Source: Nitrospinota bacterium
GTDB lineage: Bacteria; Nitrospinota_A; UBA7883; JACRGQ01
Reading direction: 5' to 3'
DNA: 46,083 nucleotides
Assembly: GCA_016217735.1 (NCBI GenBank)
Contig: JACRGQ010000035.1
Span: 1 to 46,083, forward strand
Part shown: piece by piece, positions 27,494-45,903 of the stretch
Numbering within the stretch: position 1 is the stretch's first letter
Layout of the letters: each line of letters begins with the position of its first letter
Program-made: the position numbers and the translations under genes
Notes under the pieces: model-generated
Seen by the model: only the letters and a program-made list of their open reading frames with translations
What the model was told of the DNA's origin: nothing
Database searches by the model: none

Positions 27494-28249
27494 TTAAAAT
27501 CCCCAGCTGCGGAGTTCGTCCAGATAGCTGTGGTTGGTCAGGTCGAAATGGATCGGCGTGATGGTGATATATCCTTTTTCGTTAAGCACGATATCAACGT
27601 TCGGATCGGGGTCTTTCGTATCCATCACCCCGCCTTGCCAATAGTAATCCATTCCGCGCAGGTCTTCCCTTTTCTCGAACGCCCCCCGGAATACGCAATG
27701 GCTCTGGCGGCAGATTTTTACCCCTTTAATTTCCTTTTCGGGAATGGCCGGGATGTTCACGTTGAGCAGCGTCCCCTTCTGCAGCCCTTTTTCCATAACC
27801 TTTTTGGTGATCGCCACCGCGTGCTTCACCGCCGGCGCGAAGTCCGGCTCCTTGCCGTGCGTGGTAAGCGAAAAGGCGATGGAGGGAACCCCCAATATGG
27901 TTCCTTCGGTGGCGGCGGAAACGGTGCCGGAGTAAATAATGTTCGTGGCGAGGTTCGCGCCGTGATTCATGCCGCTGATGACGATGTCCGGTGGCTCCTT
28001 CATGACCGCCAGCAATGCGATCTTCACGCAGTCGGCCGGCGTGCCGTCCACCGCATAGCCGAACGGCTGGCCGTGATCCTTCACCTCGCGTACGCGCAAC
28101 GGCATGGCGATGGTGATGGCGTGCCCCACCGCGCTTTTTTCCATCTCGGGCGCGGCCACCGTCACATCGCCGATGGTTTTCAGCCCTTTGTGCAGCGCGC
28201 GCAGGCCGGGCGCGTTGATACCATCGTCGTTCGCCAGCAATATTTTCAT
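27494..28249 (-). CDS. surE: 5'/3'-nucleotidase SurE
   Basis: A metal-dependent survival-protein nucleotidase that removes phosphate from nucleoside monophosphates and short polyphosphates. The 251 residues begin MKILLANDDGINAPG, where the paired Asp bind metal. Further motifs are VDGTPADCVKIAL and SGMNHGANLATNIIYSGTVSAA. It ends four bases from the convergent alkyltransferase stop. TG-C-TATACT ends nine bases before the ATG, with no ribosome site, again pointing to a leaderless mRNA. Confidence 0.95.
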   Translation of the reverse strand: MKILLANDDGINAPGLRALHKGLKTIGDVTVAAPEMEKSAVGHAITIAMPLRVREVKDHGQPFGYAVDGTPADCVKIALLAVMKEPPDIVISGMNHGANLATNIIYSGTVSAATEGTILGVPSIAFSLTTHGKEPDFAPAVKHAVAITKKVMEKGLQKGTLLNVNIPAIPEKEIKGVKICRQSHCVFRGAFEKREDLRGMDYYWQGGVMDTKDPDPNVDIVLNEKGYITITPIHFDLTNHSYLDELRSWGF

Positions 28250-28267: not shown

Positions 28268-28323
28268 CGCAAAAACGCGCCGCTTTTTCTAGAAAAATCC
28301 GCGGGGTCCGGCGTGCAACTCAC

Positions 28324-28418
28324 GGTGGGTACACAATTTATTGTGTACGTTGCCGCGCAGGCGGCAAGAGAGTGGTCGGCCCTGCGGGCCGATATACCCA
28401 TTAAAATGGGTACCCACC
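28324..28418. repeat. Modular stem-loop element with terminal inverted repeats, copy B
   Basis: A 95-base element bounded by perfect GGTGGGTAC (28324-28332) and GTACCCACC (28410-28418). Inside are GTACACAAT-TT-ATTGTGTAC (28329-28348), TTGCCGC-GCAG-GCGGCAA (28350-28367), TCGGCCC-TGC-GGGCCGA (28376-28392) and TACCCAT-TAAA-ATGGGTA (28395-28412). It fills the gap between the surE promoter and the end of priA. This is the cleanest copy of the family also seen at 1131, 44618 and 45813. Confidence 0.85.
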
Positions 28419-28430
28419 TAGGCGGGGTTT

Positions 28431-30614
28431 TTAAAAGAAGCCGTACGGATCGACATCAATGGAGACGGAAACATCCCGCTCCACCGCCGCTTCGATGCGC
28501 AGCGCCGCCTCGTGCAACGCCTTGCTGTTTTTGCCGCGCAGCATCATCTTCCAGCGGTAGCGGTTGCGTATCTTGTGGATCAACGCCTCCACCGGCCCCA
28601 GCGGCTCCACCCCCGGCGGCAGGGGCGGCATGGCGTGTGCCAGCTTCAGCATGGCGCTTGCAAGCCGCTCTTCGTTAACGTCGTCGAACATGATGCCGAT
28701 GAGCCGCGAAAACGGCGGATAGCCGGTACGCTTGCGCGCTAAAATCTCATCGGCGTAAAACGCCTGATAGTCGTGCAGCACGGCGTGTTTCACGGCGTAG
28801 TGGCCGGTGGTGCCGCTGATGATGACTTCGCCCCCTTTCTCCCCGCGCCCCGTGCGGCCCGCCGCCTGCGTCACAAGGCCGAAGGTGCGCTCGGCGGAAC
28901 GGAAATCGGGAAACGAAAGGTAGTCGTCCGCCGCCACGATGGCGGTGAAGGTGAGGTTGGCGAAATCGTGCCCCTTCGCGGTCATCTGCGTGCCGACCAG
29001 CACGTCGGTCTTCCCCTTTTCGAAACGCTCGAGGATGCCGAACGCTTTTTCCCGCGACGGGGCGGTGTCCTGGTCAAGGCGCTCAATGACCGCCTTCGGC
29101 ACCATCCCGCGCAAAAACTCTTCCACCTTTTGCGTGCCGGTTCCCCGGTAGTTGAAAAGTTCCCTCGCTTTGCAGGCGGGGCAGACCTTTGGCACCGCGA
29201 TCTGATAACCGCAGTAGTGACACAAGAGCTTCGCGCCGCTGCTGTGAAAGGTGAGCGATACCGAACAGTTGGGACAGCCCACGACCTCCTTGCAGACGCG
29301 GCACTTCACCCGGCTGGCGGCGCCGCGCCGGTTGATGAACACCAGCGATTGCTCGCCGCGCCCTTTGCGTTCCATGATTTTTTCGATGACGGCGGCGGGC
29401 AGCATCCGCTCCCCGTCTTCATCCTCTTCCACGATGCGGACGGCGGGCATCGGGCGGTTGTCTATCCGCTGGGTGAGGCGGCAGAGGCCATACTTGCCGT
29501 TTTGCGCGTTGTAGTAGCTTTCAAGCGATGGGGTGGCGGAGCCAAGCACCACCGCCGCGCCGGTCATCCCCCCCAGCACCACGGCAAGATCGCGCGCATT
29601 GTAATGCGGCGATTCCGACTGTTTATAGCTGGCATCGTGCTCTTCATCCACCACGATAAGGCGCGGCTGTTTAAGCGGCGCGAAGATGGCGGATCGCGCG
29701 CCGATGACCACCCGCGCCTGGCCGCCGCTGATGCGCCGCCACTCCTCGCGCCGCTGCGCCGGGGTAAGCCCGCTGTGCAACACCGCGATGTCGCGCGGGA
29801 ACCGGGCGCGGAAACGGCGGACGAACTGGAACGTCAAGGCGATTTCCGGCACCAACAGTATCGCGCCGCCGCCCAACTCCAACGCCTTTTTGCAGAGCGC
29901 GATGTAGACCTCCGTCTTGCCGCTGCCGGTTTTTCCCTCCAGCAAGGTTATCGCGCCGCTCTTCGCTTCAACATCTTTTGCGATCTTCTCTATCGCGGCA
30001 TTTTGTTCGGCGGTGTAGGTTGCGGGGTCGATGCTTTTTTCCGTTACCGCTTCTTCCCCATCTTTGGCGATAAGCTCCGATCCGCCAAAATAGTATTCCT
30101 CCCGCTTCACCAGCAATCCGCCCTTCACCAGGCTTTTCGCGGCTTTATCCAGCTCGGTGACGGTGAGACCGGCCTTTGCCGCCAGCGTCTGCGCGCCAAG
30201 GCTTTCTTTGACGGCATCGAGGATTCTCTTTTTGTCTTCCCGCAGGCGGCCCGGCTGCGCGCCGGTCTTTTCGTACACCACCCGTTTCTTAAGTTCCTCG
30301 CGCGGGCCGATACCCCGAAAGAGTTCGCCCGGAGCGGCGATGTAATAGTCAGCGGCCCAGAGCGCCAGCTTCATCAGGTGCGTGCTGAAGATCGGCGCGG
30401 CGTCCAGCACCGCCTTTATCTCTTTGGTTTCGATATCGGTCTCGCCGAATCCAACGAAGACGCCGATGTTCTCCCGGTTGCGGAACGGCGCCACCACCCG
30501 CACGCCGGGAATCAGCTTTGCCTCGTCTTCGGGTTTAAATGAGTAGGAGAAGAGTTTGCGCAGCGGCACATAGACCGCCACATGCGCGGCTTTTTTCTTT
30601 TTCGGCTGGATCAC
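28431..30614 (-). CDS. priA: Primosomal replication restart helicase PriA
   Basis: A 3'-to-5' superfamily 2 helicase that reloads the replisome at stalled forks. The 727 residues include an N-terminal 3'BD domain (YVPLRKLFSYSF), Walker A GKTGSGKTEVY, the D-E-E-H box in VVDEEHDASYKQ, GSATPSLES, eight zinc-binding Cys (C-R-V-C, C-P-N-C, C-H-Y-C, C-P-A-C), RGTGTQKVEEFL and AGRTGRGEKGG. GTG start placed immediately after the stop of the preceding gene (TAA-GTG), so it is translationally linked to the methyltransferase-MTHFR fusion. Length is normal. Confidence 0.95.
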   Translation of the reverse strand: MIQPKKKKAAHVAVYVPLRKLFSYSFKPEDEAKLIPGVRVVAPFRNRENIGVFVGFGETDIETKEIKAVLDAAPIFSTHLMKLALWAADYYIAAPGELFRGIGPREELKKRVVYEKTGAQPGRLREDKKRILDAVKESLGAQTLAAKAGLTVTELDKAAKSLVKGGLLVKREEYYFGGSELIAKDGEEAVTEKSIDPATYTAEQNAAIEKIAKDVEAKSGAITLLEGKTGSGKTEVYIALCKKALELGGGAILLVPEIALTFQFVRRFRARFPRDIAVLHSGLTPAQRREEWRRISGGQARVVIGARSAIFAPLKQPRLIVVDEEHDASYKQSESPHYNARDLAVVLGGMTGAAVVLGSATPSLESYYNAQNGKYGLCRLTQRIDNRPMPAVRIVEEDEDGERMLPAAVIEKIMERKGRGEQSLVFINRRGAASRVKCRVCKEVVGCPNCSVSLTFHSSGAKLLCHYCGYQIAVPKVCPACKARELFNYRGTGTQKVEEFLRGMVPKAVIERLDQDTAPSREKAFGILERFEKGKTDVLVGTQMTAKGHDFANLTFTAIVAADDYLSFPDFRSAERTFGLVTQAAGRTGRGEKGGEVIISGTTGHYAVKHAVLHDYQAFYADEILARKRTGYPPFSRLIGIMFDDVNEERLASAMLKLAHAMPPLPPGVEPLGPVEALIHKIRNRYRWKMMLRGKNSKALHEAALRIEAAVERDVSVSIDVDPYGFF

Positions 30615-44608: not shown

Positions 44609-44617
44609 CCTTGGCAG

Positions 44618-44662
44618 GACACACAATCCTGTGTGTCGTCGGCCCAACGGGCCGACCTTTTT
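44618..44662 (+). terminator. Terminator after cheV built from stem-loop modules, copy C
   Basis: GACACACA-ATCC-TGTGTGTC (44618-44637) is followed by GTCGGCCC-AAC-GGGCCGAC (44638-44656), then C and five T. The second stem is a textbook intrinsic terminator for pfkA-cheV. The same TCGGCCC/GGGCCGA module occurs in repeat copies A, B and D, and the preceding GGCAGG start resembles copy D. This suggests a mobile hairpin module doing the terminator's job. Confidence 0.8.
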
Positions 44663-45015: not shown

Positions 45016-45041
45016 TAGTCATATCAAAATACGGAGCCATT

Positions 45042-45314
45042 ATGAAATCCAGCCGGATAAAGCCGATCAGTTACCTGAAGGCGCATGCCGCCGAGATCGT
45101 GCGCAACATAAGCGAAAGCGGCGGGCCGCTTGTCATCACCCAAAACGGCGAGGCGAAGGCCGTGATGCAGGACATCGCAAGCTACGAACAGAATCAGGAG
45201 ACGATGGCACTGCTGAAAATCCTCGCGTTGGGCGGCCGCCAAATCAAGGAAGGCAAAACCGAACCCGCCGCGCAGGTGTTCAAGCGCCTGAGGAAGCGCG
45301 GGGAAAACTGCTAA
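45042..45314 (+). CDS. Phd/YefM-family antitoxin
   Basis: A 90-residue antitoxin. The N-terminal part has the Phd/YefM DNA-binding fold: I-S-Y-L-K-A-H-A-A-E-I, then GGPLVITQNGEAKAVMQDI. The C-terminal part (KEGKTEPAAQVFKRL) would wrap and neutralise the toxin. ATACGGAG precedes the ATG. Its stop overlaps the toxin start (TAATG), so the two are translationally coupled. Such antitoxins usually repress their own promoter. Confidence 0.88.
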   Translation: MKSSRIKPISYLKAHAAEIVRNISESGGPLVITQNGEAKAVMQDIASYEQNQETMALLKILALGGRQIKEGKTEPAAQVFKRLRKRGENC

Positions 45315-45640
45315 TGCCATTCGCGGTTCACCTGACCAGCGACGCGGTGCATGACCTCGAAGAACTGTACGATCACATCGCCCGGCATGACGCTCCGGAA
45401 AAAGCGGAGCACGTTTTGGATAAAATTGAAAAGGCGGTCGCCACCCTTGCCGCATCCCCAAAGCGCGGCGCATATCCAAAGGAACTGCTGGCGCTGGGAA
45501 TACGCGATTACCGCGAGATATTTTTCAAACCCTATCGGATAATTTACCGGGTTATCGATAATGCCGTATATGTCCTGCTGATCTCCGATGGCCGCCGCGA
45601 CATGCAGACCCTTTTGCAGCGCAGACTGCTGACCGCTTAA
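45314..45640 (+). CDS. RelE/ParE superfamily toxin
   Basis: A 108-residue toxin. The fold shows an N-terminal VHLTSDAVHDLEELYDHI helix pair and the core strands DYREIFFKPYRIIYRVIDNAVYVLLISDGRRD. The sequence is closer to ParE (gyrase poison) or YoeB-like RelE (mRNA cleavage) than can be decided by eye. It lies in a repeat-rich island between palindromic elements, a common setting for mobile toxin-antitoxin pairs. Confidence 0.88.
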   Translation: MPFAVHLTSDAVHDLEELYDHIARHDAPEKAEHVLDKIEKAVATLAASPKRGAYPKELLALGIRDYREIFFKPYRIIYRVIDNAVYVLLISDGRRDMQTLLQRRLLTA

Positions 45641-45812: not shown

Positions 45813-45903
45813 GGCAGGTACATGCTCTCAGCATGTACATTTTTCCAAGGGAGAAACCCATCGGCCCCCGGGCCGATGTACAGGCTGAGAGCCTGTACCC
45901 ACC
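45813..45903. repeat. Modular stem-loop element, copy D
   Basis: A 91-base element bounded by GGCAGGTAC and GTACCCACC (7 of 9 bases inverted-complementary). Modules: GTACATGC-TCTCA-GCATGTAC (45818-45838), ATCGGCCC-CC-GGGCCGAT (45860-45877), GTACAGGC-TGAGA-GCCTGTAC (45878-45898). The two outer loops, TCTCA and TGAGA, are reverse complements of each other. Same family as copies A to C. Confidence 0.8.

Follow-up and report, generated by a model that had tools for sequence, protein, structure and literature searches.

The 95-base element at positions 28324-28418 of the window, the whole 46,083-nucleotide stretch of DNA that we analyzed, is very probably a non-autonomous REP doublet (REPIN): a head-to-head heterodimer of GTAG-type REPs that a RAYT (HUH/Y1) transposase copies into intergenic sites of a Nitrospinota genus. 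It lies between two minus-strand genes that we take to be priA (28431-30614) and surE (27494-28249). By its nearest surE loci, found at 93-94% protein identity in MAG WY2.bin26 and in two groundwater MAGs of the Nitrospinales (nzgw266 and nzgw267), the organism is a member of Nitrospinota, and its genus is one of groundwater bacteria. We refer to its 2.53-Mb genome as G000 and to its congeners as G001, G002 and G003; all are MAG assemblies, this one being 95% complete.

The element comprises four hairpins. Its 5′ half reads G-GTGG-(GTACACAAT tt ATTGTGTAC)-g-(TTGCCGC gcag GCGGCAA)-gagagtgg, and its 3′ half continues (TCGGCCC tgc GGGCCGA)-ta-(TACCCATT aa AATGGGTA)-c-CCAC-C. REP unit A (28325-28348, plus strand) consists of the foot GTGG (28325-28328) and a stem-loop (28329-28348), and is followed by spacer hairpin H2 (28350-28367, a TTGGCGC variant), the genus-specific spacer hairpin H3 (28376-28392) and the inverted REP unit B (28394-28417, minus strand), whose foot CCAC (28414-28417) is GTGG on the minus strand. 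The four hairpins of the original prediction were borne out by a DNA fold of -30.4 kcal/mol, compared with a mean of -14.1 for shuffled sequences (z = -6.7); RNA from the opposite strand also folds stably (z = -6.3), with the ends pairing to close a clover. The 9-bp terminal inverted repeats reported earlier (GGTGGGTAC...GTACCCACC) are indeed perfect in the window copy, but they are not a classical TIR: because the outer hairpins are GTRG-footed REPs, the repeat is simply G, the foot GTGG and the GTAC common to both outer stems. RAYT-associated REPs are defined by a head of GT(A/G)G beside a palindrome (PMC2817692), and GTRG and GTGG degenerations of the GTAG foot, as well as “HH” dimers with their feet outside, are described in PMC3733652. 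The outer hairpins are thus GTRG-tagged REPs in inverted, head-to-head orientation, and the element is therefore a REP doublet (REPIN). An Rfam search at gathering score gave zero matches across the whole window.

The hairpin TCGGCCC-N-GGGCCGA occurs four times in the window (1288, 28376, 44639 and 45861) against 0.01 expected by chance, in agreement with the earlier statement that three other loci share it. Another complete doublet, whose stems are of a different type, spans 45813-45903 with foot GCAG, a GTACATGCT stem, a degenerate TTTTTCC hairpin, the TCGGCCC hairpin, a GTACAGGCT stem and foot CCAC. Before it, at 45041-45640, adjoining small ORFs resemble by eye an antitoxin/RelE-type toxin pair. 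A partial doublet at 1239-1312 retains GTAG plus a GTCGCACT stem, a TTGGCGC hairpin and the TCGGCCC hairpin, its second REP having decayed, and a half element at 44613-44655 has foot GCAG, a GACACACA stem-loop and the TCGGCCC hairpin. At 1132-1225 stands a REP unit, GTAG plus GTACACAAT...ATTGTGTAC, which holds another palindromic repeat in its loop and precedes a TTGGCGC hairpin. This second repeat (CGGGAGGCGCGGA...TCCGCGCCGGA..TGGCCTATAGGCCA, 1137-1207) sits between the AAT and ATT of such stems, recurs at the independent loci G000:C1:29854, G003:C17:22942, G003:C32:8765 and G001:C18:6855, and may be either an insertion targeted to the loop or a REP variant with a long loop. Because its copies diverge, the family was missed when the window was scanned for generic direct repeats.

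Genome-wide, the TCGGCCC/GGGCCGA hairpin is present in 56 copies, against 0 for a reversed-pattern control, and in 29, 6 and 70 copies in the three congeners, while 36 genomes outside the genus hold 0-2 each. The elements thus form a dispersed intergenic family, neither at background frequency nor confined to the window loci. We examined the surroundings of these hairpins among the matches listed, with the sites in G003 and G001 taken from a pattern search. A foot-plus-hairpin unit was found on both sides of 45/130 TCGGCCC-type hairpin sites and 7/4200 random positions, and on at least one side of 93/130 sites and 152/4200 random positions. Feet were selected by the rule G[TC][AG]G plus a hairpin, of which the all-site enrichment (45/130 against 7/4200) is independent; the 7-11 bp stem at every foot follows from this detection rule. 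At the remaining 85/130 H3 sites one or both flanks lack a recognizable REP, probably through decay. The feet of 41 oriented doublets are GTGG (51), GTAG (27), GCGG (2) and GCAG (2), so that 78 of 82 are GTGG or GTAG, and doublet lengths are mostly 89-91 bases (28/41). In orientation and spacing these doublets match REPINs, as two inverted REPs at fixed distance, and they would be expected to replicate as a unit. Being extragenic and numerous (38/38 hairpin sites intergenic, 56 H3 copies, 27 of one stem class), the REPs correspond to the GTAG type.

We identified Y1 transposases in this genome with PF01797. With a score of 81.4, the RAYT at G000:C23:17402-17896 exceeds the curated NF047646 (REP_Tyr_transpos) threshold of 80. 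It also matches entry 4er8, the solved structure of E. coli TnpAREP (E 9e-4), and lies between two near-identical element copies in the same (direct) orientation. RAYT proteins of other types are 47-53% identical to this first one, and the HxH motif and a catalytic-type C-terminal tyrosine are invariant in 11 RAYTs; HUH motif, single catalytic tyrosine and REP_Tyr_transpos membership together identify them as RAYTs. Another PF01797 match, G000:C53:18288, was unrecovered by RAYT queries and was dropped. The RAYTs of the genus are flanked by their cognate REPs, with stem pairs CACGGACA/GACGGACA, GTGCGACA/GTGCGACA, GACACGTT/TCACACT and, at G003:C125, GTACCCA/GTACACA, the pair of the window element; RAYT genes with matching ends, which the original prediction suggested seeking, are thus present (G000:C23 and G003:C125). 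A further pair, GTACATGCT/GTACAGGCT, comes with a TTTCTCC spacer hairpin and adjoins RAYTs in three congeners (G001:C84, G002:C129 and G003:C47); it is the pair of the second window doublet at 45813-45903. Well-supported RAYT sister pairs carry the same stem type, and it is on these pairs that RAYT-REP coevolution rests, because the RAYT tree is resolved near its tips only (2/13 forks well supported, the deep forks unresolved).

This assembly contains only two RAYTs, that on C23 with CACGGACA flanks and one on C57 with GTACCCA on one flank and a repeated GTGCGGCA on the other, and neither has the window element's stem pair on both sides. The stem class of the window element, GTRGGTACMCAWTNNAWTGKGTAC, is most abundant in G003, the congener with the matching RAYT: 74 copies, against 27 in G000, 14 in G001 and 2 in G002. 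Outside the genus, we found 2 copies in G010 and none in nine further genomes searched. The tie between RAYT presence and REP number follows the same trend as reported previously (PMC2817692). As the matching RAYT is known in G003 and not in this assembly, the window copy is probably immobile now.

Presence of the element differs between genomes at a few sites, of which only one is clean. At C11:15320, an element in G000 is missing from three congeners, and target duplication, raised earlier as a possible feature of the flanks, is absent from the junction. Such duplications are detectable in this genome, since an unrelated repeat of ~150 bp (TCCCCTCCTTTGCAAGGAGGGGA...) at G000:C11:3826-3976 (L045), absent from G001 and G003, bears an 8-bp target duplication (GGGATCAG). 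A classical MITE, bounded by TIRs and moved by a DDE transposase acting at the GGTGGGTAC ends, would explain the perfect 9-bp repeats of the window copy, the scattered copies and the empty sites. We consider this extremely unlikely: the ends differ between stem types and only the GTRG foot is constant, the single clean site lacks the kind of duplication visible at the unrelated repeat, and the associated transposase is a RAYT with elements flanking it in direct orientation. At the locus of the window element, the priA-surE junctions of three relatives (L027, L028 and L029) are without it; this absence was read directly from the sequences, and MAFFT aligned the element poorly there. The last codons of priA are present twice, on either side of the element (28290-28318 and 28407-28430), the copy nearer surE resembling L029 and the copy closing the present gene resembling L027/L028, which may reflect a local duplication or a recombination breakpoint at the element. 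At C7:11240, the corresponding place in G001 is taken by a similarly built but decayed element whose stems differ, consistent with either independent insertion or module exchange. At G000:C48:33911 (L058:11864-11952), a TGTCATCCTGAGC...CTCAGAATGACA repeat holds a REP doublet in its tip; the repeat is bounded by a ~18-bp duplication (GCGCTACGCTACGAAT) and is absent from G002 and G003.

All 38 hairpin sites examined for placement lie outside genes, as called by a purpose-written codon-usage gene caller at 86% coding density. They fall into 21 tandem, 9 convergent and 4 divergent gaps and 4 contig edges, where 101 tandem, 29 convergent and 40 divergent gaps are available in the region. The convergent enrichment (9 sites in 29 gaps against 4 in 40 divergent ones) and the very stable RNA fold would suit transcription terminators or stabilizers of mRNA 3′ ends kept for host function, as would a doublet at G000:C48:32449 that stands where two congeners (L186/L187) have a terminator-like hairpin and T6 just after the upstream gene, a hairpin that G000 has lost. 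T-runs nonetheless follow only 2/84 element ends, fewer than the 13% at random intergenic positions, and the elements are therefore not intrinsic terminators, which had been suggested as a possible role. The differing presence between congeners also speaks against a host function, which would leave RAYT linkage and genus restriction unexplained. Overall, we regard this explanation as highly unlikely, although the elements may still have some secondary function as RNA.

Several stem types have H2 (TTGGCGC and variants) and H3 (TCGGCCC) in common. Of the 37 intact non-tandem doublets, 18, or about half, are hybrids of two stem types, which would suit the original reading, free assembly of unrelated palindromic modules by an unknown mechanism. 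Using stem classes set by hand for both hybrid and slot counts, we found each type mostly or entirely on a single side of the spacer (H2 side : H3 side): CRCGGACA 8:0, GACGGACA 0:6, GTACAGGCT 0:6, GTACCCA 1:14 and GTACACA 13:3. In 10,000 permutations, stem type proved to depend on spacer side and on its partner (p < 1e-4 for each), and the stem pairs beside RAYT genes are matched. These slot and pairing results largely refute free assembly, which we rate as the least probable of the explanations considered. “Modular” was right, as variable hairpins surround a conserved one and copies are mosaic, but “freely interchangeable” was wrong.

RAYTs of sister genera have GTAG-type REPs with other spacer hairpins (for example GTTGCCCC in G005, TTGCCGC in G010 and TTTGCCCC in G006). 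TCGGCCC-type hairpins occur in the flanks shown for 7/11 RAYTs of the genus and 0/7 of the sister genera, an exact probability of about 0.01 with relatedness ignored. Since the hairpins divide by genus even though RAYTs from the different genera are intermixed on the tree, spacer identity seems to track the host genus and not RAYT descent. This pattern may well reflect exchange within the genome. More tentatively, the TTGGCGC and TCGGCCC hairpins might form a genus-specific exchange platform where REP families of different RAYTs swap halves, yielding hybrids with one end per RAYT, an idea that we hold to be possible and rather doubtful.

In the mechanism that we propose for the REP doublet, the outer hairpin and GTRG foot would be the site that the RAYT recognizes and nicks on single-stranded DNA. 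RAYT/TnpAREP is known to cut its single-stranded cognate REP, with foot and hairpin both needed (PMC8266576), and candidate substrates of the G003:C125-type RAYT are the single-stranded GTGGGTACACAAT.../GTGGGTACCCATT... hairpins. The inner hairpins would keep the REPs about 45 bases apart, setting spacing or folding, such that the excised strand could fold as a compact clover; a clover, as opposed to one long hairpin, has been proposed as the RAYT-competent form (PMC3116915). The RAYT would then move the folded, single-stranded doublet into DNA of the lagging strand where this is exposed, and hybrid doublets may arise by half-swapping at the spacer.

The original prediction set these elements apart from ordinary REPs and from any named family. 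Neither distinction holds: the outer hairpins have a GTRG foot, stand head-to-head and flank RAYT genes, and the element is of a known kind, the GTAG-type REP heterodimer or REPIN, of which heterodimers and hairpin-bearing spacers, for GTAG/CGTC REPs, appear in the available portion of PMC3733652. That portion includes no Nitrospinota family, and a literature search for REPs in Nitrospin* found no report; our analysis adds a RAYT/REPIN family for this phylum. Moreover, the occurrence of several RAYT types with one spacer inside one genus offers a handle on spacer function and on RAYT-REP co-divergence.

Like the REPINs of Pseudomonas fluorescens SBW25 (PMC3116915), the elements consist of two inverted REPs around a spacer, fold as a unit and are intergenic, each type having its own RAYT. 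The SBW25 elements are described as symmetrical with a less conserved spacer; in the present family the two REPs are often unlike each other, and the spacer is two conserved hairpins common to several REP types. This fixed two-hairpin spacer (TTGGCGC, TCGGCCC) is a departure from textbook REPINs, for which neither long, conserved hairpins in the spacer nor a hybrid share of about 50% is typical. The GTAG-tagged head-to-head heterodimers covered in the available portion of PMC3733652 share the outside GTAG/GTRG foot, stems of 6-13 bp, short loops, hybrid dimers, small stem-loops in spacers and RAYT association. In that portion, hybrids make up about 10% of Stenotrophomonas dimers, against about half here, and two spacer stem-loops are reported for Agrobacterium CGTC-3 dimers only. 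The E. coli REP/BIME and TnpAREP (yafM) system (PMC2817692) similarly has two different REPs, Y and Z2, flanking one RAYT, and mosaic composites; its REPs are imperfect palindromes with a bulge, whereas those of the Nitrospinota genus are mostly perfect, like the second group in PMC8266576.
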